IMG/VR virus record: IMGVR_UViG_3300015264_000034
Span: 1-42,217 of that record
From: a virus
Strand: one strand, 5' to 3'
DNA: 42,217 nt
Shown: one piece after another, positions 14,785 through 41,066 of the stretch
Layout: every line of letters starts with the position of its first letter
Position numbering within the stretch: the first letter of the stretch is position 1
Translations under genes and position numbers: made by a program
The notes under the pieces: model-generated
Database searches by the model: none
Told to the model about the DNA's origin: nothing
The model's input: the letters and a program-made list of their open reading frames with translations, nothing else

Positions 14785-16119
14785 TTACTTCTGGCACTCC
14801 GCGACGACGAACGCTTGCGGGTATTTCAGCGTGACGTCGGTCAGCATGAACGTCGTTAGCTCGATCATGCCCTGCTTTTTGAGCCGGTACGGATCGACGA
14901 TCAGCTCGAAGCCGCTTCCCCACATCCCGATCACCATCATCGCGAACACGCCCAGGATGAGCGCGTGATTGTTCGACGTGGTTCCGCGGACCTGGACCTT
15001 CGGGACCTGGTTCGAGGACCGCGCGGTGTAACCCGACACGGTGTCGTTGTCTGCCCAAACCGGGAGCGCGATCGTGTTCGCGAGGCGCGCGGTCAGCTTG
15101 AGGAGCGATTTGATTCCCGGCGTCGTGAGCCATCCCGGATCGCCGAGCTGATCGGCGTTCACGTCCTCGAGATCCTCGATGATGTGAACGATGTCGCTGT
15201 AGGTCGGTTGCGCTCCGTTGGCGACGTCGTTCTCGAGGATGAACGACTGAACGCCGGTCGTGTGCATGATGCCGACGGGGTTGTTTCCGCCGGTCGCGCC
15301 TGAGATCGCCGCCAAGTCGAGAGCGAGCGCCATATCGCGAGCAAGATCCGCGCGGACGAGACCGTCGACGTCGACGACCGCTTGCGCGAGTAATTGCCGC
15401 GAATAGCTCGAGCTGGACTGGTAGGTTTTCGGCGAGCTCGGGATCTGACCGAGCGTCAGATTCGAGTCGGCGACGTCCGAGCCGGGATTCTCTCCGACCC
15501 ATGAGCCCGTCGCCTTGCCGGTTTGTTTCGGATAAGCAACGTTGTCGCGCAACCCGCTTACCGTGACCGCGCCGAGTTCCTTGACGCGCATCCGGTTGTA
15601 CAGGAAGTCGATGAACGCGCCGGGTTCGGTGAACTTCAGCTCGAGACCAGTCGTCGCGGTCGAGGAGTCGAGACCCGCGCGCTTTGAGAGCGCCTGGACC
15701 GTCTTAAGACTCCACGGCACGAAGAGACCGCCGTGAGTTTCCTCGCGGTGATTCTTCTCGATCGTCCGCGAGATCTCGATCTCGAGACAATTTTCGGGCT
15801 CGCCGCGCTCTCCATCCTGATGCATCGCCGCGGCCAATGTCAGGATGCCGCGCGCGAGGTTGTATTCCCTGTCCTCTTTTTCGCTGAGGACGATTTCGTC
15901 GCGGTGTTCTGATGCCGCGCCGGTTGTGTTGCGTCTTCCATTGCGCGCCTCTACATCTGCGAGGATCAGAGCGGAAACGGCGTCGACCGACCGTCCCTCT
16001 GTGATCCACGTCGCGACGCGCTCGTGATCGATGCCGTGACGCTTGCCGAGATTCATAACCTCGGTAGCGACGCCGCGGGCATCTAGGATCGCCTGAGCAT
16101 TGCTCGTTTCCGTTGCCAT
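14785..16119 (-). CDS. Major capsid protein from internal start (alternative product)
   Basis: ATG 16119 lies in frame inside the fusion gene at codon 256, exactly where the capsid part begins (MATETSNAQAILDARG). It is preceded by GGAGGAAA (16125-16132) with 5-base spacing, one of the best Shine-Dalgarno sites in the window. Translation from here would give a 444-residue capsid protein without the protease. This would let the phage make many capsid subunits and few protease-capsid fusions from one message. Confidence 0.6.
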   Translation of the reverse strand: MATETSNAQAILDARGVATEVMNLGKRHGIDHERVATWITEGRSVDAVSALILADVEARNGRRNTTGAASEHRDEIVLSEKEDREYNLARGILTLAAAMHQDGERGEPENCLEIEISRTIEKNHREETHGGLFVPWSLKTVQALSKRAGLDSSTATTGLELKFTEPGAFIDFLYNRMRVKELGAVTVSGLRDNVAYPKQTGKATGSWVGENPGSDVADSNLTLGQIPSSPKTYQSSSSYSRQLLAQAVVDVDGLVRADLARDMALALDLAAISGATGGNNPVGIMHTTGVQSFILENDVANGAQPTYSDIVHIIEDLEDVNADQLGDPGWLTTPGIKSLLKLTARLANTIALPVWADNDTVSGYTARSSNQVPKVQVRGTTSNNHALILGVFAMMVIGMWGSGFELIVDPYRLKKQGMIELTTFMLTDVTLKYPQAFVVAECQK

Positions 16120-16884
16120 TCTGCTTTCCTCCGTTGAAGTTACGGCCGGTTGACCGGCCGCTGGTTCTAAGCTGCGAACATGTACGGGGAATCCGCGCTC
16201 CCCCGCTTTTCGGTTATGCCCGACTGAGGGATCAGCCGGGACCGCGACCGAACTTGCTTCCATCGGCGTCCATTTCGTCGCCCGGTAGGTGTCGGGACCG
16301 TCCTTTTCCATCTTCTCGAGGACGTACTCGTCGACGCTGTAGCCGACCGAAATGTACTTCCGGATTCCATCGACGACGTCGCGCTTGATGTCTTGCGCTT
16401 TTGCGTTCCTGGAAAACTGGACGACGCCGCGGAGGACCTTGTCCTTCCCGAGCGTCACGTCGTTCACGATCCCGACGATGTCCCTGGTCCCGTGGGAATC
16501 GAGGAATGAGATCCCTTGCTTCGCTCGACTCATGTCGACGGATCCCGGCGAGTGATCGAGGATCTCGATCACTCCCCAGCGCTTAACCGGGAACTCGCTC
16601 GAGATCGAGATCGCGAACCGATCCTCGTCGGCGCCCTCGTCCGCGGGGTCGTCCTCTTCCGCTTCCTCGGGATCGTCATCCGGTCCGGTTGCGTCGCCGG
16701 CGTCGGCTTTCTTTTTGCGACGCTCGATGTTCGCGGCGACCTTGTCGGCCTTGAGCCGACGCGCTTTCTTCGGGAGCTTTTTGAACTCGGTTACCTGAAA
16801 CTCGCGAGTCTGCATCGGTAGGACTTCGCCGTCCTGGACCGGCGTCGTTCTGATTTCGATCTCTGGAATTACAGTCGTAGCCAT
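14785..16884 (-). CDS. Fused prohead protease and HK97-fold major capsid protein
   Basis: A single 699-residue frame. Residues of about 85-225 form a U35-type prohead serine protease: GISFLDSHGTRDIVGIV carries the likely catalytic His, and RKYISVGYSVDEYV carries the likely Ser. Residues of about 256-699 are an HK97-fold capsid protein, with a delta-like helical segment, then LFVPWSLKTVQALSKRAGLD, SWVGENPGSDVADSN and a C-terminal FELIVDPYRLKKQGMIELT. Highly charged KKxKAD and acidic stretches precede the protease. The start ATG 16884 follows the portal stop, with GGAGCTG. An internal ATG at 16119 has its own strong ribosome site, so free capsid protein may also be made. The protease would cut the scaffold part during maturation. 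Confidence 0.9.
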   Translation of the reverse strand: MATTVIPEIEIRTTPVQDGEVLPMQTREFQVTEFKKLPKKARRLKADKVAANIERRKKKADAGDATGPDDDPEEAEEDDPADEGADEDRFAISISSEFPVKRWGVIEILDHSPGSVDMSRAKQGISFLDSHGTRDIVGIVNDVTLGKDKVLRGVVQFSRNAKAQDIKRDVVDGIRKYISVGYSVDEYVLEKMEKDGPDTYRATKWTPMEASSVAVPADPSVGHNRKAGERGFPVHVRSLEPAAGQPAVTSTEESRMATETSNAQAILDARGVATEVMNLGKRHGIDHERVATWITEGRSVDAVSALILADVEARNGRRNTTGAASEHRDEIVLSEKEDREYNLARGILTLAAAMHQDGERGEPENCLEIEISRTIEKNHREETHGGLFVPWSLKTVQALSKRAGLDSSTATTGLELKFTEPGAFIDFLYNRMRVKELGAVTVSGLRDNVAYPKQTGKATGSWVGENPGSDVADSNLTLGQIPSSPKTYQSSSSYSRQLLAQAVVDVDGLVRADLARDMALALDLAAISGATGGNNPVGIMHTTGVQSFILENDVANGAQPTYSDIVHIIEDLEDVNADQLGDPGWLTTPGIKSLLKLTARLANTIALPVWADNDTVSGYTARSSNQVPKVQVRGTTSNNHALILGVFAMMVIGMWGSGFELIVDPYRLKKQGMIELTTFMLTDVTLKYPQAFVVAECQK
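16125..16132 (-). promoter_or_regulatory. Internal Shine-Dalgarno site for capsid protein
   Basis: GGAGGAAA on the minus strand, five bases (GCAGA) before an in-frame ATG at the protease/capsid junction. Its strength and exact placement argue against chance. Confidence 0.6.
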
Positions 16885-18456
16885 CTAGTCAGCTCCTATA
16901 ACCGCGAGATTGGTTTTCTTACTGTCGGCCGCGCCGCCGGATGGTTCGTCGTCTTTGTTGTCCTCGGTCGACTGATCGACCGGCGCGCCGGTTGGTTTGG
17001 TTGCGCTCGGGAGCGTGAGATCGAGATCGAGCTCCTCGGCGAGAGTTTCTTCCTCGGAGATCTGCTCGAACACTTCCTCGATGTCCTCGCCCGTTTCCGA
17101 AACAATCGAGTCGCGACTCTTGAGACGAGCGCCGATCGCGAGGACCGCGGCCTGGACGTCCTTAAGCGGGTCGACCCATTGCCATCCCCGCGGTTCCCAC
17201 TTCCCGGCCTTGAACTTTTCCGGATCCCGCGAGTCGAGCTTGAGCGCTCCCGAGAGCAAAGAGAACGAGAGAAAGTCGAACATCACGGGCTCGCAAAGCG
17301 ACTCGATGAGCCAAGACTGATCGCGCTTCCACTGATCGCGCTCGATCAGGAGTCCGGACCGCATCGAAGAGTAATTGACGCCGACCAGGTCGGACGCGAG
17401 AGCGTTGTACGAGACGCCGAGCCCGGTCGCGATTTGCCGGAGCACAGTAACGACGAAATTCGGGAAAGCGCTAGAGGGGTGATCGGGGTTCCAAGAGACG
17501 AACTTCATTCCAGGGGGAAGCGTCTCGATCGTGCCCGGACTCGCGTCGAACGTGTATTTCCGATCGGGGTTCGGATCCTCATAAGTCTCGGCGTCGACGT
17601 GCTCGAGCCATCCCATCTTTGCGGCGCCCGTGCGCGCGGCGACGAGCTCGGCCTCGATGTACCCCTCGAGCATTCGGAGCTGCATCATCACGGCATGGAA
17701 CCAGGTAACGCCGCGGGTTTGCGAGACGCGCTCGACGTCGTAGAGATGGATGATGTCCTCGGCCGGGATCCGCTCGCGCAAGAGCGAACCGCCGATATCC
17801 GAAGGATGTCCGGGGTAAATGTAATAGGCGACCGGCCGACCCCACTTGTCGACCTCGACGCCGAGACGGATCTCGTTTCCATCTTTCGACGGTGGAACGT
17901 TGTACAAGTGATCGACCTGATCGGCGTCGATGAGCTGGAGAGCGAAGCGGTATTTATTGCCGCGGAACCCGCCGACCTTGCGGATGAAAACCTCGCCATC
18001 GGTCGCGACGTTCCTGGTGACGAGATCCTGGAGCGCTCTCCAGGAGAGTTTCCCGTCGACGGTGCAATTCCCTTTCTTACACCAGTCATCCCACGCGACC
18101 GTGATCGCGTCGTTGATTTGTTTGGAGAGCTTGCCGTCGTTGTTCCGAACCTGGGGACGGTAGCCGATCCCTTTGTGACCGACGACGTTCGCGGCGAGGA
18201 GATTGAGGAAGTTTTTCGCGACGGGGTTGTTTCGCGAGAGCTCGCGGCCGCGGGCTCTGAGGAGTCGTAAATTCCCGCGGATTTCCTGATCGGCCGAAAG
18301 GATCGTCGCGATCCAATCGAGCGTTAGCCTGGTCCCCGCGGCGCCGCTGTAGACGGTCGCGTTCGACCTCGAGAGCGTGAGACCGATCGAGGATCCGACC
18401 GCTAAAACTGCCTTGCGAGCGACTCGGCTGATCCAGGTCCCGCGCGGTTTGCTCAT
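16885..18456 (-). CDS. Portal protein, lambda family
   Basis: A 523-residue protein. The start overlaps the upstream gene by 4 bp, and the stop is adjacent to the protease-capsid start. The sequence has the hallmarks of lambda gpB-like portals: RGRELSRNNPVAKNFLNLLA near residue 70, then VVGHKGIGYRPQ, ATDGEVFIRK, RIPAEDIIHLYDVERVSQTR around residue 230, and GVSYNALASDLVGVNYSSMR. The C-terminal tail is acidic and low in complexity. It forms the dodecameric ring at the packaging vertex, working with the GpA-type terminase. Confidence 0.92.
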   Translation of the reverse strand: MSKPRGTWISRVARKAVLAVGSSIGLTLSRSNATVYSGAAGTRLTLDWIATILSADQEIRGNLRLLRARGRELSRNNPVAKNFLNLLAANVVGHKGIGYRPQVRNNDGKLSKQINDAITVAWDDWCKKGNCTVDGKLSWRALQDLVTRNVATDGEVFIRKVGGFRGNKYRFALQLIDADQVDHLYNVPPSKDGNEIRLGVEVDKWGRPVAYYIYPGHPSDIGGSLLRERIPAEDIIHLYDVERVSQTRGVTWFHAVMMQLRMLEGYIEAELVAARTGAAKMGWLEHVDAETYEDPNPDRKYTFDASPGTIETLPPGMKFVSWNPDHPSSAFPNFVVTVLRQIATGLGVSYNALASDLVGVNYSSMRSGLLIERDQWKRDQSWLIESLCEPVMFDFLSFSLLSGALKLDSRDPEKFKAGKWEPRGWQWVDPLKDVQAAVLAIGARLKSRDSIVSETGEDIEEVFEQISEEETLAEELDLDLTLPSATKPTGAPVDQSTEDNKDDEPSGGAADSKKTNLAVIGAD

Positions 18457-19070
18457 AGTCCGTTCCCCGTGACGTCGACCCAGGTCGGGGGGAACGTCGG
18501 ATCTTCCGGTTCGTTTCTAAACGTGATGAGGACCGGAGCCCCGAGCTGACCGGGATTCTGCATTCTCCAGAGCTTCGCTTTGTAGTAGCCGCGGAACTGC
18601 AAAAGCTCTTTGGGAGTGATCTTCGTGATCGAGCGGCCGGCGATCTGATAACTGAGCATTCCCGCGGTGAGTTGGCCCTCGATCGCGGCCTCGATGATCG
18701 TGAGGGTCCGTTCTACGTGCGAAATGTAGGCGCCGGCCGACGCGGTCCGGACGTTGCCCTCGATTAAAAGTTGCTGGAGATCCCGAGTCGGATGGACTTC
18801 CTCGGACGTTCCGGAATTGATAAGAACCTCGTCGACGGTGTAGCGACCAGGCGCGACGGAAGCGGTTAAAGACGCGGCGAGAACGATGTCGAAAGAGTTG
18901 CCGTCGGGGTTGATCTCCGCGGGTTGGTTGAAGATGTTCGAGGCGCCGTTCGCGTAAAACGTGTATGCCCAACCCGCCGACGCCTGAAAGTCGTCGAACG
19001 ATCGATGGAACTTGACCGTCGTCCCGGCGACCATGATCGTCGGGACCTCATCCGGGATGATTGGTGGCAT
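18453..19070 (-). CDS. Head-region protein between cargo cassette and portal
   Basis: A 205-residue protein starting at ATG 19070 behind GGAAG, the first gene after the terminator at 19142-19171. The N-terminal half is beta-rich (TTVKFHRSFDDFQASAGWAY, then ANGASN). The C-terminal half contains MLSYQIAGRSITKITPKELL followed by FRGYYKAKLWR, a helical pattern seen in small gpW-like joining proteins encoded just before lambda-type portals. It could thus be a two-domain head-tail joining or head-completion protein. Function is inferred from place and this pattern only. Confidence 0.55.
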   Translation of the reverse strand: MPPIIPDEVPTIMVAGTTVKFHRSFDDFQASAGWAYTFYANGASNIFNQPAEINPDGNSFDIVLAASLTASVAPGRYTVDEVLINSGTSEEVHPTRDLQQLLIEGNVRTASAGAYISHVERTLTIIEAAIEGQLTAGMLSYQIAGRSITKITPKELLQFRGYYKAKLWRMQNPGQLGAPVLITFRNEPEDPTFPPTWVDVTGNGL

Positions 19071-19141
19071 GTACTTCCGAAGCTATCCCGACCTCAGCGA
19101 AAGGATTTAGAGGTTTGACTTCGGAATGGTACCGATGTAAC

Positions 19142-19171
19142 AAAAAAACGGCCCGTCATCTGGACGAGCCG
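19142..19171 (-). terminator. Rho-independent terminator after cargo cassette
   Basis: On the minus strand CGGCTCGTC-CAGAT-GACGGGCCG forms a 9-bp stem with one T-G pair and a 5-nt loop, followed directly by TTTTTTT. It sits 47 bp past the stop of the zinc-finger gene and before the head genes. It is the clearest terminator on the gene strand of the window. Confidence 0.85.
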
Positions 19172-19217
19172 CAAGGGAAAATGCTTTCGAGGATGCGCTA
19201 GATTGTAGCGGTTTTCC

Positions 19218-19391
19218 TCAAGGTTTTCCGCTCCTGTTGAAAAAGGTCCTCGAGCGGCGCCGCATCCGCTTCCGTTGCTCGACCGCGTGCGCGAGGCAAA
19301 GCGTCTTGTAGAACGTGAGTTTCGCGCCGCACCAGCAAAGACCCTGAGCCTTGCGCTCGCGCGACCATCGGGTTTGACGGGGTTCCCTCAA
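19218..19391 (-). CDS. Small zinc-finger-like protein, TTG start
   Basis: A 57-residue basic protein. The start is TTG 19391 in a TTGA overlap with the stop of the peptidase gene, the same coupling used by its neighbours with ATG or GTG. It contains GLCWCGAKLTF and TLCLAHAVEQRKRMRRR, a C-x-C plus C-x2-H arrangement likely to bind zinc, with an Arg/Lys-rich helix after it. It is the last gene of the cassette. It may bind nucleic acid; nothing more can be said. Confidence 0.55.
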   Translation of the reverse strand: MREPRQTRWSRERKAQGLCWCGAKLTFYKTLCLAHAVEQRKRMRRRSRTFFNRSGKP

Positions 19392-19951
19392 GACTTCCGC
19401 CCGCTGCCTTCCCCCGCGATCGCCGCTTGTTCCCGATCGAAAAAGCTCGGATCGAACCGGACTCGAGCGCTGTCTTTCCAGCGAAGGATCCGGACGTGAC
19501 CTTGGAACCAGGGATCGGTCGCCGGTTTGCTTTTGAGCTGATAAGTCGCAATGAAACCGCGGCGATTGTCGGAATCGATCCAGGTCCCCGAGCCCTCGAA
19601 CGCCGCGACATGAGCACCCTGGAAACGAGGGTTTGATCCCTGAAACGCCGCTATGTCGCCGGGTCGGAGGACCGCTTCGTCGATCGCGTTGCGATCGCGG
19701 AGCTCGGCGACGATCTCGAGGTTCCCTTCGCCGGCGTACATCTGACGCTCGGTCAAAAACGCTTCGCCGTGCGCGTTGGTGAGGAAGCCCGAGCAATTGA
19801 AAGCGTAGTAGCCGCGCGAGCTCCAGCCCTTGAGGACCTCGAGCCGAGCGAGGTATCCGCCGGGGGTTGGGATGAACGCGCGCGTCGAGTAGGCGATCGA
19901 CGTGAGCGAGGCGAACATCACGAGCGCTAGGACCGCGATTGTTTTGCTCAC
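19388..19951 (-). CDS. Secreted NlpC/P60-like peptidase
   Basis: A 187-residue protein starting at GTG 19951 (GTGA overlap with the upstream gene). The first 20 residues (SKTIAVLALVMFASLTSIA) are a signal peptide or membrane anchor. The catalytic pattern of NlpC/P60-like cysteine peptidases is present: AFNCSGFLTNA with Cys 53, LRPGDIAAF, and QGAHVAAFEG with His 114, followed by Asp 126/128. Such enzymes cut peptide bonds in cell-wall peptides. It is not in the lysis region and is exported by signal peptide, so it may alter the host wall rather than lyse it. Its co-transcribed partner is also secreted. Fold assignment is likely; target unknown. Confidence 0.68.
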   Translation of the reverse strand: MSKTIAVLALVMFASLTSIAYSTRAFIPTPGGYLARLEVLKGWSSRGYYAFNCSGFLTNAHGEAFLTERQMYAGEGNLEIVAELRDRNAIDEAVLRPGDIAAFQGSNPRFQGAHVAAFEGSGTWIDSDNRRGFIATYQLKSKPATDPWFQGHVRILRWKDSARVRFDPSFFDREQAAIAGEGSGRKS

Positions 19952-20469
19952 TTGGCATCGACTCCGAAGTCGTAACCGACTGGACTGAAACCGGCCGCGA
20001 GGAAAAACTCGCCCGCGGGAAGGTCGCCGGCCGGCGAGATCTCGAGCATGTCGCCGTTGCGCGTGACCGTGATCGGGATGAGCTTGCTCTCGTCGAATCC
20101 GACCCTCGAGTTCCCCGTCCAGGCGCCGACCTTGCCGACGCGGATCTCGCGGCGATCGGCCTTTTGATCCATGCGGACCAGGACGACGTCGCGCTCCGAG
20201 ACCGCTTGGTTCGCGCGGATCTTGTAGACCAGGCGCGGCCGAGCTGAGACGCGGATCGGAGCCTGAGCTCCAGAGAACTCCCAAACGACCGACGGCATCA
20301 CGCCGGGGATGAAAGCGCTCTTTGCGACGCTTCGGGTCGAGACCGCGGCCGTCGCTGCGTGTTCCATCTTGACCAGCGCGCCGGCGCGATCGACGTACAT
20401 TCCGGGAGCATCCTGAGCGAACGCGACCGAGCCGAGGAGGACGACAAAGGCAACGAGAGCGCGGTTCAT
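19948..20469 (-). CDS. Secreted protein of bacterial type (cargo)
   Basis: A 173-residue protein starting MNRALVAFVVLLGSVAFAQD, a clear signal peptide with a likely cut after the AFA motif. The mature part has RPRLVYKI, DVVLVRMDQKADRREIRVGK, ITVTRNGDMLEISPAGDLPA and closes GYDFGV. From memory this pattern resembles a beta domain common in secreted proteins of Acidobacteriota and is not a usual virion protein. It overlaps the genes on both sides by 4 bp. The earlier ATG at 20511 would place extra residues before the signal peptide, so 20469 is preferred. Possible roles include surface change or exclusion of other phages; all are inference. Confidence 0.7.
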   Translation of the reverse strand: MNRALVAFVVLLGSVAFAQDAPGMYVDRAGALVKMEHAATAAVSTRSVAKSAFIPGVMPSVVWEFSGAQAPIRVSARPRLVYKIRANQAVSERDVVLVRMDQKADRREIRVGKVGAWTGNSRVGFDESKLIPITVTRNGDMLEISPAGDLPAGEFFLAAGFSPVGYDFGVDAK

Positions 20470-20675
20470 GCTACACGTCCGCGGCGAGGAGCATCGGGAA
20501 GCAAGTTCCAAAAGTTCGCGCCGAGGCGTCCTTCGACGATCTCGTCGATCTTGGTCTCGCCGCCGGTCGGCTCTGGAGCGATCGGCGAGTCGTACTTCGC
20601 GACCATCGCGATCAGGGAATCGAGCATCTCGCCGGTGTAGGCCGTTTGGGGGTTCTTGACCGTTCGCGTTCTCAT
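20466..20675 (-). CDS. Small protein, first gene of cargo cassette
   Basis: A 69-residue soluble protein starting at ATG 20675 with AGGA 10 bases upstream. It contains TGEMLDSLIAMVAKYDSPIA and closes with LPDAPRRGRVA. I recognise no family. It is the first gene after the 183-bp gap behind the large terminase and is coupled by a 4-bp overlap to the secreted protein. Confidence 0.6.
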   Translation of the reverse strand: MRTRTVKNPQTAYTGEMLDSLIAMVAKYDSPIAPEPTGGETKIDEIVEGRLGANFWNLLPDAPRRGRVA

Positions 20676-20778
20676 GTTTTCTTGTCCTCGTCTCGGGAGA
20701 CCTTACCGAATCGCCCGCTGTATTGCTCTACTGGATTGACCCTAGATTACGCCCGCCCCCGCGGACGGAGCAAGGAAA

Positions 20779-20795
20779 ATCATAGTGCTCACTAT
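20779..20795 (-). promoter_or_regulatory. Operator-like palindrome over -10-like element
   Basis: ATAGTG-CT-CACTAT (20782-20795) is a perfect inverted repeat. On the minus strand its end overlaps TATGAT (20784-20779), five of six bases of a sigma-70 -10 box. No good -35 box lies 16-18 bases upstream, so if this is a promoter it may need an activator or act as a repressor-controlled weak promoter. The distance to ATG 20675 is about 100 bp. Confidence 0.35.
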
Positions 20796-20823
20796 TACGA
20801 AAGACGCATTCCGCGATTACCTG

Positions 20824-20848
20824 AGAACGGCCCGAAATAGCCCGTTCT
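20824..20848. promoter_or_regulatory. Hairpin after large terminase gene
   Basis: AGAACGG and CCGTTCT pair with an 11-nt loop, 10 bases past the terminase stop. A T5 run lies on the plus-strand side seven bases beyond the stem, so as a terminator it would fit the plus strand better. On the minus strand it may act as an RNA end or processing structure. Confidence 0.4.
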
Positions 20849-20858
20849 GACCCCCTTT

Positions 20859-22835
20859 TTACCAGCTCTTGACCCATCCCGAAGTGCCTCGGAGGTTCCT
20901 CAGCGGGTTACTTCTGGGGGGTTCCGGGGTGTCCTCGACCTGGTCGTCGGGTTCGGGCTCGGGATCCGCGCGCTCGACGTCCGGGGGCATGCCCAGCTCC
21001 TCAGCCATTTCCCCCAGGCGACGGAGCTTCCACGCCGGGACCGTGTAGAGCGCCGCGAGCGCATAGACCTCGAGATCGAGCGCCTCGTTCCTCGACCTGG
21101 TTTTGATGTACTCGCGGACCAGGCGCCCGCCTTTCTTCACTCGCCGGACGCGCTTTTCGGCCGTGAGTTGCGCGAGATACTCGTCCGAGATGTCGGTCGG
21201 GAGATGCATGTAGCCGGGAGCAGGTTTCGGGATCTTCATGCGCGCGAAGATCCGGTCCTTCGCCGTGTCGACGCCGAGCGTGTACAGCTTGACGCGGTAG
21301 GAATTGTTTCGAGAGAACTTGCCGAGGATCTCGCGGCCGACCTCGCTCGAGCCCTTGCACGCGAAGATCCGGCGCCGTTGCCGAGCCTTCACAAATTTGT
21401 AAACGTCGTCGGTATTGTGCCCGCCGGAATCGATGAACGTCGCCGAGATCGGAACCTTCCGGCCGCTCTCGTGTTCGAACTCGGTCAGCAAGAACTCGTC
21501 GACGTCGTCCCAAACGTCGGTTTTCCCTGGATCCCCGAAAAATTCTTGATGCCCGATCAGCCAGCTCTCCTCGCCGACGCCCCATCCCTTGACGGCGACC
21601 TCGAGGCGATCGCCCTGGACGTCGACCGCGGCCGTGAGGAGCGCGACGCCGGTCGGGACATCCGCGGGGTATTCCTCGCAACGGCGACGGAGCGCGTGAG
21701 GTTCGAGCGAGTCGCCTTGCTCTTCCCACGCCTCGCCGAGCTTGAGGTTTATGAACGCCTTGATCTTCTCGGGGTTCTTTTCCGTGTTCGCGTCGTGAAA
21801 CTCTTGCGCGAGCGATCTCCAGTTTTGTCGCCACGGCGAATAGAGCGCGTTGATGTAGAACCCGACGATCGGCCGGCCTGGGAACGTCGCGACCCACACG
21901 CCGGCGTCGAGCATGGATTGTTTTCGATACTCCGGGATCCGGCCTTTGCAAGAGACGCAAATATAGGCGACCGACGCGGCGACGACTTGCCCGTCATCGT
22001 CGACGGTGTATTGAAGTCGGTACTCTTTGGCCTCGTCGCGATCTCTCCATCGGAGCGGTTGCATGTGCCCGCATTCCGGACATGGGACAAAGAACTCACG
22101 TTGATCGCTCTTCTCGTAAGCGAGTTCGATCGGCGAGGTCCCTTTCGGTTTCGCCGGTGTCGAGCCCTTCACGATCTTGTAGTTCGCGAATGCATCGGTT
22201 CGCGCCGTTCCGATCGCGATCGGAGATCCCTCGCCCTCGACGTCCAGGGGATAACCGTCGATCTCATCGAAGAGCACGATCGGGACCGGATCCGAGCGGA
22301 GTCCGGAGCCCGCGTTCGCGCCGGTCAGTTTCAAAAAGCCGCCGGGGAATTCTTTGAGCGCGAGCGTATTCCCCGATGCTCTCGAGACGCGATCGCGGAT
22401 CTTCTCATGCAGACACGGCGTCGCCTGGATCATCGGCGTGATTCGTTTTTTTCCGTAGTCCTTCGCGTTGTCGATCGTCGGTTGGACCAGCATGATCGGT
22501 TTCGGATCGACATCGATGTAGTAGCCGACCAGGTTGTTCAAGACGGCGTCGCTGTAACCGATCTGCGCTCCCTTTTGGATCACGACCTCGTGAACCGCGG
22601 GGTTGAGGATCGCGTCCATCATCTCGACCTGAAACTTCTCAGCTCGGAACGGTCCCGGCCGATCGGTCGTCCCTTTGGGCATGACGCGATTTTTCTCGGC
22701 CCACTCCGAGACGGTGAGATCCTCCGGAGGTCGAAAGAGCTCGATCGCTTGCCGGATCCGCTTGCGATAGTTGCGGAGCGCCGCGGGGTCGACCTCGAGC
22801 GGCGCCGGCGCCGGTTTAACTTGAGCCTGGTTCAT
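20859..22835 (-). CDS. terL: Terminase large subunit, GpA family
   Basis: The 658-residue packaging motor. The ATPase part has the Walker-A-like QKGAQIGYSDAV (about residues 87-98) and Walker B IVLFDEIDGYP (about 187-195). A zinc-binding pair PCPECG (252-255) and YICVSCKG (293-296) is typical of the GpA family. The nuclease part has AAVDVQGDRLEV with Asp 405, ATFIDSGGHNTDDV with Asp 469, and later a basic C-terminal region. ATG 22835 is chosen over 22859 because conserved sequence begins there. It overlaps the small subunit gene by 20 bp. The enzyme cuts concatemeric DNA and pumps it through the portal. Confidence 0.95.
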   Translation of the reverse strand: MNQAQVKPAPAPLEVDPAALRNYRKRIRQAIELFRPPEDLTVSEWAEKNRVMPKGTTDRPGPFRAEKFQVEMMDAILNPAVHEVVIQKGAQIGYSDAVLNNLVGYYIDVDPKPIMLVQPTIDNAKDYGKKRITPMIQATPCLHEKIRDRVSRASGNTLALKEFPGGFLKLTGANAGSGLRSDPVPIVLFDEIDGYPLDVEGEGSPIAIGTARTDAFANYKIVKGSTPAKPKGTSPIELAYEKSDQREFFVPCPECGHMQPLRWRDRDEAKEYRLQYTVDDDGQVVAASVAYICVSCKGRIPEYRKQSMLDAGVWVATFPGRPIVGFYINALYSPWRQNWRSLAQEFHDANTEKNPEKIKAFINLKLGEAWEEQGDSLEPHALRRRCEEYPADVPTGVALLTAAVDVQGDRLEVAVKGWGVGEESWLIGHQEFFGDPGKTDVWDDVDEFLLTEFEHESGRKVPISATFIDSGGHNTDDVYKFVKARQRRRIFACKGSSEVGREILGKFSRNNSYRVKLYTLGVDTAKDRIFARMKIPKPAPGYMHLPTDISDEYLAQLTAEKRVRRVKKGGRLVREYIKTRSRNEALDLEVYALAALYTVPAWKLRRLGEMAEELGMPPDVERADPEPEPDDQVEDTPEPPRSNPLRNLRGTSGWVKSW

Positions 22836-38337: not shown

Positions 38338-38356
38338 ACCCGCGCCGTTAGCGGGT
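38338..38356 (-). terminator. Weak terminator candidate at TetR gene end
   Basis: ACCCGC-N7-GCGGGT forms a 6-bp stem that includes the stop codon of the TetR gene. There is no T run directly behind it; a TTATTTT stretch begins about 15 bases later. A weak or false terminator. Confidence 0.25.
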
Positions 38357-38950
38357 TTGGCGAGCTTTCGGGACGGGTTTTCCGACGCCGCTCAAGAGGA
38401 TTTGCACAAAGGAATCCACAGCCGCTCGGTACGCTTTTTTGCTCGAGGACTGGTTTCGGAAGATGCGAGCCCCGAAACAATAGTCGACGAGATGCTGGAC
38501 GGCCGACCTCGGGAATACGCGCTCAAACTGTTGACTGAAAGCATCGACGCAACCATCCAGACTAAGACGGAGCGGACCAGGATGTTCGAGGATCGTGAAC
38601 GCGTAGAGGCGAACGAACTCGACCGTCATCATGTTGCAAAACTCAAGCGCCGCGAGTCTGATTCCCTTCTCTGATTTGTCGAGGTCTAGGATGTATTCGA
38701 TCTCGGCCGCTCGGGGTTTGACCGCGGCGATCGCCGCTCTCACGGCCGCGTCGAAGAGCTCATCCTTGGATTTGAAATAACCGAAAAGCGTCGACTCCAT
38801 GATTTCGGCGATCGCCGCGATGTCCTTCGTCCTTGTGCCACAGTAGCCGGCGCGCGCGAATTCAGCGATCGCGGCCTCGAGGATCTTCTCGCGAGTGTCC
38901 GTCTTATAGGAGCCGTAAGGTCCGCTCCTGCCTTTGCCTTTGTGAGCCAT
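38348..38950 (-). CDS. TetR-family transcription regulator
   Basis: A 200-residue protein. The N-terminal domain of about residues 18-65 has the TetR pattern: KILEAAIAEFARAGYCGTRT, then KDIAAIAEIMESTLFGYFKS and KDELFDAAV. The larger C-terminal part (ligand and dimer domain) is helical. TetR proteins normally repress a neighbouring promoter and release it when they bind a small molecule. That is unusual in a phage and would let the phage respond to a chemical signal. The candidate target is the promoter at 38199-38227 just downstream. Confidence 0.85.
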   Translation of the reverse strand: MAHKGKGRSGPYGSYKTDTREKILEAAIAEFARAGYCGTRTKDIAAIAEIMESTLFGYFKSKDELFDAAVRAAIAAVKPRAAEIEYILDLDKSEKGIRLAALEFCNMMTVEFVRLYAFTILEHPGPLRLSLDGCVDAFSQQFERVFPRSAVQHLVDYCFGARIFRNQSSSKKAYRAAVDSFVQILLSGVGKPVPKARQTR

Positions 38951-40427: not shown

Positions 40428-41066
40428 TTAGACCTTGACGTCGCCGATCGTGCCTGGTTTGGGATTCGGATCAGCGGGGTTTTGTTCCGCGCTCGCTTGG
40501 GTCGAGGTTGCGACGTTCGCGACTGCGATGAGTTTCGAGAGACCTTGCACGTACTCCAGGAAGCGAGCCCAGCCGTTGAGCCCGCCATTCACTTTACGCC
40601 GAACGCCTTCCCACTTCCCGGCCGCGGCGAGCGTTGGAATATTCCGCGCGCGGAAGTAGAGCGCGAGAACATGAGCGGCGATCGCGGGGTCGAGCGCGAG
40701 GTCCGGATTCCCGACCAGGTCGACGCCGATCTCGCGGCCGTACTCAGTGTAATTGCTCCGACCCGTGATCTGGATATAGCCGCGGCCGCGGAAGAGCGGA
40801 CCGTCGCCCTCTTGTGTGTTCCCCAGGTCCGCGCGACCCTCGTAGAGCTTGGTGAAATACTTCGGCCCGCCGCGTTCTTTGATCGGAGCAAAGCATCCCG
40901 TCTCGACGCCGACCGTCGCGATCGCCGCGATCTGAGTCGGGACTTCGGAGATCCCATGCTTCTCGAGAGCTGCAAAGATGAGCGGCCAATTCTGAGCGAC
41001 CGCGGCCTGGGGACCGCTCGTTCCAAGAGCCGAGACGATTGTTTCGATTTTGATCGGCTCGGTCAT
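40428..41066 (-). CDS. Endolysin, GH19 chitinase-like
   Basis: A 212-residue enzyme. It has the GH19/lysozyme-like pattern: IAAIATVGVETGCFAPIKER with Glu 55 and 64, then PLFRGRGYIQITGRSNYTEY (residues 90-109), the most diagnostic stretch of GH19 endolysins. It should cut the glycan chain of peptidoglycan. No signal peptide, so it depends on a holin. The C-terminal 35 residues are low-complexity (NPADPNPKPGT). It starts in a 4-bp overlap with the upstream gene. Confidence 0.88.
   Translation of the reverse strand: MTEPIKIETIVSALGTSGPQAAVAQNWPLIFAALEKHGISEVPTQIAAIATVGVETGCFAPIKERGGPKYFTKLYEGRADLGNTQEGDGPLFRGRGYIQITGRSNYTEYGREIGVDLVGNPDLALDPAIAAHVLALYFRARNIPTLAAAGKWEGVRRKVNGGLNGWARFLEYVQGLSKLIAVANVATSTQASAEQNPADPNPKPGTIGDVKV

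Follow-up and report, generated by a model that had tools for sequence, protein, structure and literature searches.

In a group of lambda-type soil phages, the junction between the gene for the large terminase (TerL) and the gene for a gpW-like head-tail joining protein is very probably a hotspot for accessory genes. The cassette described here, composed of a 69-codon gene (g69), a gene for a secreted protein of host type (sec173) and a gene for a peptidase of the NlpC/P60 type, would be one of its fillings. It was found in the IMG/VR virus record IMGVR_UViG_3300015264_000034, the 42,217 bases of which constitute the whole stretch of DNA that was analyzed (hereafter, the window). The window represents a lambda-type phage whose genes lie mostly on the minus strand (Table 1), and the distance of 1,788 bp between the gpW-like gene and TerL holds the cassette. 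The initial annotation placed the cassette between the terminase and portal genes; it does follow TerL, but the next gene is the gpW-like one and the portal gene comes only after that.

Table 1. Coordinates of the cassette, its borders and the phage genes referred to in the text
Feature	Position	Strand	Remarks
TerL (large terminase)	20859-22835	-	clear assignment
Leader, 183 bp, TerL to cassette, probable control region	20676-20858	-	length and sequence kept in six relatives
Operator-like dyad ATAGTGAGCACTAT	20782-20795	.	overlaps TATGAT (20784-20779); unique in the window, recurs in relatives
g69, 69 aa	20466-20675	-	coding score 0.39 per codon
sec173, predicted secreted 173-aa protein	19948-20469	-	relatives in L003, L006, L090 and L091; host homologs
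Predicted secreted NlpC/P60-fold peptidase, 187 aa	19388-19951	-	triad C53/H114/D126
Doubtful zinc-finger-like ORF, 57 aa, TTG start	19218-19391	-	coding test failed
Intrinsic terminator closing the cassette	19148-19172	-	same place in the clade
gpW-like head-tail joining protein, 205 aa	18453-19070		PHROG 5774, E 6e-18; directly before portal
Portal	16885-18456		clear assignment
GH19 endolysin	40428-41066		distant from the cassette

The genes g69, sec173 and the peptidase gene are joined by successive 4-nt overlaps (ATGA and GTGA). Each of them passes the coding test, with codon use like that of phage genes (0.35-0.44 per codon) against a baseline taken from ORFs on the wrong strand (mean -0.39; 95th percentile 0.15 per codon). 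Of the four coupled genes proposed at first, these three stand, but the fourth, a 57-aa ORF, scores -0.17 per codon, inside the wrong-strand range, and neither relatives nor a family match were found for it, save one chance-level PADLOC match (E 0.008). The suggestion that it encodes an Ogr-like regulator was dropped because it fails the coding test. The two signal peptides reported for the cassette were recovered, as both sec173 and the peptidase satisfy a simple signal-peptide rule. The C-terminal part of g69 is similar to the first cassette gene of relatives, and the copy in locus L090 is similar over a wider stretch.

A TerL search of viral contigs yielded approximately 55 soil-phage loci with TerL proteins 58-78% identical, and their comparison shows a slot of variable content. 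The TerL stop is separated from the gpW-like gene by 54 bp in L033, 59 bp in L023 and 131 bp in L042, all of them empty slots, and by as much as 5.7 kb in L045; ORF calling in the slots gave 205 ORFs, which form 118 clusters. The cassette genes are missing from most relatives, where the slot, with the same neighbors, is empty or otherwise filled, and instead of occurring in all relatives as virion parts, sec173 and the peptidase have relatives in few loci only. Four families of secreted cargo show no clustering on the TerL tree, and tree neighbors carry different cargo families (L052/L055, L027/L032 and L024/L031, some of these pairs being moderately supported).

The content of the slot is biased towards predicted secreted proteins. 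By a crude, simple rule, signal peptides were predicted for 28 of 142 slot genes (20%) versus 36 of 671 other genes (5%), with a p-value of 2e-7 that is too small because related loci are not independent. By our own count, about 20 of the 24 slots of 0.8-3 kb hold at least one predicted signal-peptide protein, and the predicted secreted slot proteins represent at least six unrelated families. Fillings of another kind include a Gp49/HTH pair in L025 and genes for C5 and N6/N4 DNA methylases and for HNH and SacI-type nucleases, located within 8 kb after TerL in L034, L051 and L044; for these three loci the same slot is presumed, because the fetched DNA does not reach their right flank. A TET-associated glycosyltransferase was also observed among their genes after TerL.

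Small, high-turnover hotspots between conserved genes have been described in P2-like phages (PMC9122126). The terminase-gpW slot resembles a phage diversity hotspot of this type (Rousset, 2022, PMC9122126), a small locus (~1-5 kb) whose content turns over rapidly and which is flanked by a pair of conserved phage genes: TerL and gpW-like neighbors are found in both the window and its relatives, with 54 bp to 5.7 kb between them. As for anti-phage content, methylase, nuclease and Gp49/HTH genes follow TerL in some relatives; no PADLOC defense match above chance was found for the cassette genes of the window. The slot differs from the described hotspots in its location at the terminase-gpW junction of lambda-type soil phages, in its mostly predicted secreted cargo, and in a leader with a co-varying dyad and a terminator that are kept in one clade.

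As an explanation of the whole, we lean slightly towards an accessory cassette whose products change the envelope of the host and perhaps exclude other phages. The leader with its dyad (a probable operator and promoter) and the intrinsic terminator would bound a unit, so that the cargo could be swapped and expressed with the packaging and head genes undisturbed. The site of action of the secreted proteins would be the cell envelope, during infection or lysogeny, where they would alter wall or surface, most plausibly with the result that competing phages infect poorly. That the secreted proteins of the cassette act on the envelope is quite probable, a reasonable expectation that gains support from the excess of secreted proteins among the slot genes; exclusion of other phages as the benefit is put forward tentatively. 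Comparison shows the slot with its variability, its borders in the window's clade, the bias towards predicted secreted proteins, and the triad and fold match of the peptidase; the cassette's own promoter, timing, substrate and benefit are what we infer in this account. The lack of a consensus promoter, the normal base composition and the lack of an integrase in the window are points against it, as are the crudeness of the signal-peptide rule, the dependence among loci, the small excess of terminators across all clades and the lack of a PADLOC defense match above chance.

No family model was found for sec173, and its structure model is poor (pLDDT 41). A profile built from the phage copies detected homologs in 15 of 199 Acidobacteriota genomes and in none of 200 Pseudomonadota genomes (Fisher p 2e-5); the best host homolog has an E-value of 3e-14, and several span almost the entire mature protein. 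Judged by these profile matches, sec173 belongs to a protein family present in the genomes of Acidobacteriota, which are abundant soil bacteria with little-known phages (PMC11924767). Among phage loci, its relatives occur only in L003, L006, L090 and L091 (L088, L089, L092 and L093 are repeat contigs of already counted sec173 or peptidase loci). A tblastn search of INPHARED with sec173 and the peptidase gave no match, and scans of viral contigs found nothing when these proteins were used singly and recovered a few relatives when alignments of secreted proteins were used. The dN/dS values among the phage copies of sec173 (~0.2-0.37) fit purifying selection.

The group of the window phage, a soil phage, is linked to Acidobacteriota also through L082 (TerL 68% identical), which belongs to a Terriglobia MAG, on a contig of 159 kb, and has bacterial-looking genes, as judged by eye, on both flanks. 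In the apparent prophage region of this contig (L082 and L105-L108, about 35-73 kb), a serine-recombinase-like gene marks one end and a tyrosine-integrase-like gene marks the opposite end. L082 reads as an integrated prophage because of its bacterial-looking flanks and the recombinase- and integrase-like genes near the phage ends; one of these ends adjoins an apparent comM/yifB fragment. An integrated relative, together with a sec173 family found in Acidobacteriota genomes, could indicate that the secreted proteins alter the surface or stress tolerance of the lysogen and have no anti-phage role. This is conceivable but rather unlikely, given that neither a tyrosine nor a serine integrase was found in the window and that the restriction-modification-like and Gp49/HTH genes in other fillings point to competition between phages.

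The 187-aa protein, which has a Sec-type N-terminus, is a probable secreted cell-wall enzyme of the NlpC/P60 type. It matches the Pfam family NLPC_P60 weakly (14.8 bits versus a cut-off of 23, E 0.029), and its homologs score 20.4 and 22.8 bits against the same cut-off (E 5e-4 and 9e-5). Cys53, His114 and Asp126 are invariant among three homologs, as expected for a Cys-His-polar triad. The AlphaFold model has a pLDDT of only 68, and a Foldseek search with it returned mainly NlpC/P60 structures (best E 3e-4, TM 0.4-0.6), including MepS and the phage endolysin Lys2972. The protein shares fold match and Cys-His-Asp triad with peptidases such as MepS and Lys2972, and differs from NlpC/P60 peptidases in lying under the Pfam cut-off and in not being the main endolysin of the phage. 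Its relatives were found only in the slots of L010 and L022, and Acidobacteriota genomes gave only marginal, partial matches.

The cassette was rejected as the main lysis unit because the GH19 endolysin gene lies elsewhere. A secreted protein with a peptidoglycan-peptidase fold, encoded on the late strand at a late-gene position, might still serve as a second late wall enzyme aiding the GH19 endolysin, with sec173 helping at the outer membrane. Such auxiliary lysis is unlikely, since the phage already has that endolysin, relatives of the peptidase are present in just two other slots, and further slots contain secreted proteins unrelated to these.

The proposal of an envelope-modifying accessory cassette assumes a unit with its own borders, for which comparison of the window's clade provides evidence at either border. 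The gap upstream, initially described as a 183-bp control region with a palindrome over TATGAT, has exactly this length, and its dyad was found again in relatives; the sequence AGTGNNCACT occurs once in the window versus 0.07 expected. Among the nearest relatives that are complete, six in number (L002, L003, L004, L006, L008 and L056), a leader of 179-192 bp precedes the first gene of the cassette. The arms of the dyad co-vary, being AAGTG/CACTT in several relatives, AAGCG/CGCTT in L004 and ATAGTG/CACTAT in the window. Another dyad is present further upstream in some relatives (e.g., CACAGT-AGTC-ACTGTG in L008), and the alignment allows the single dyad of the window to correspond to either of the two. 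Across 679 kb of related loci, 14 of 21 matches to the dyad pattern fall within 200 bp after TerL, overlapping patterns having been counted twice in some loci. In L010, L017 and L022, too, the first genes have dyads of this sort in front of them. Close to its lysis genes, the window carries a gene for a TetR-type regulator (38348-38950, Pfam E 4e-12), a candidate binder of the leader dyad.

At the other border, the terminator at 19172-19148 is, as claimed, the strongest on the minus strand within the scanned bases 1-40000, and each of the seven clade members has a terminator at this position in front of the gpW-like gene (7/7). Over all clades, 15 of 30 filled slots have a closing terminator versus 11 expected, slightly above chance; a terminator closing filled slots in general was therefore rejected, and the claim is restricted to the window's clade. 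Separate control of the cassette through leader and terminator appears fairly probable. The notion of a separately expressed cargo unit holds in so far as there is strong support for an accessory unit with defined borders, but no sigma-70 consensus promoter was found in the 183-bp gap and the composition is not atypical. That these are ordinary late genes, encoding accessory or structural proteins expressed by read-through from the terminase operon, would agree with the shared strand, the tight gene coupling, the normal composition and the lack of a consensus promoter, and is very unlikely in view of their absence from most relatives, the empty slots, the signal peptides and the conservation of dyad leader and terminator in the clade.

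The cassette resembles the morons of lambda-type phages (PMC6469090), in which additional genes, followed by a terminator, separate neighbors that are adjacent in related phages: TerL and the gpW-like gene are only 54-131 bp apart in L033, L023 and L042, and a terminator is kept in the clade. It differs in that no sigma-70 consensus promoter was found in the dyad leader, itself kept in the clade, and the base composition is not atypical (GC 0.612 versus 0.602). The label "moron" is less secure; we did not file the cassette under it because its composition is not atypical and its independent expression is only putative. In L090 (4058-7555), a sec173 cassette with a leader dyad, composed of a g69-like gene, a gene of a family weakly matching DUF3846, and sec173, is encoded on one strand while terS and capsid genes are on the other, with an HNH-like gene between. 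This arrangement suggests a portable unit; a rearranged phage or a chimeric contig is a possible alternative.

Among known exclusion systems, the secreted superinfection-exclusion lipoprotein Ltp of phage TP-J34 (PMC3952083) is likewise phage-encoded and directed to the envelope, whereas sec173 is not a predicted lipoprotein, and no sequence relation was apparent. No title or abstract in the searched literature points to the terminase-gpW slot, and the consulted passages of a 2025 study of Acidobacteriota viruses (PMC11924767) do not mention it. It would be an improbable extension that Acidobacteriota phages own a dedicated slot for envelope proteins, framed by dyad leader and terminator, which receives exchangeable secreted proteins, part of them of host type, and that these form a new class of surface-based exclusion unrelated to the known ones. 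A hotspot at a fixed place offers a simple route for collecting many uncharacterized phage-borne secreted proteins, which can then be tested for phage exclusion or changes of the host surface, and the presence of one slot in empty, swapped and filled forms makes the moron question directly testable.

Several further elements were observed around the slot. Many relatives, also those with empty slots, share a short conserved element (AGTAAGTCTCTA-like) whose distance to the gpW-like start downstream is ~37-40 nt; the place concerned is 19070-19130 in the window and its equivalent in most of the 29 relatives compared (motif score 216 versus ~140 for shuffled sequences), and the window's clade has CTAAATC at a similar position. 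It is possibly a late promoter or a processing site. A TATAAT-like box occurs just before the terminator in the window (~19198-19203) and in the trailers of L002-L008, L056, L032, L052 and L055; box and terminator together look like a promoter followed immediately by a terminator, one reading of which would be an antiterminated late promoter. Finally, positions 14785-16884 of the window encode a single 699-aa protein that combines a prohead protease-like part, just under the Pfam cut-off, with a major capsid domain.
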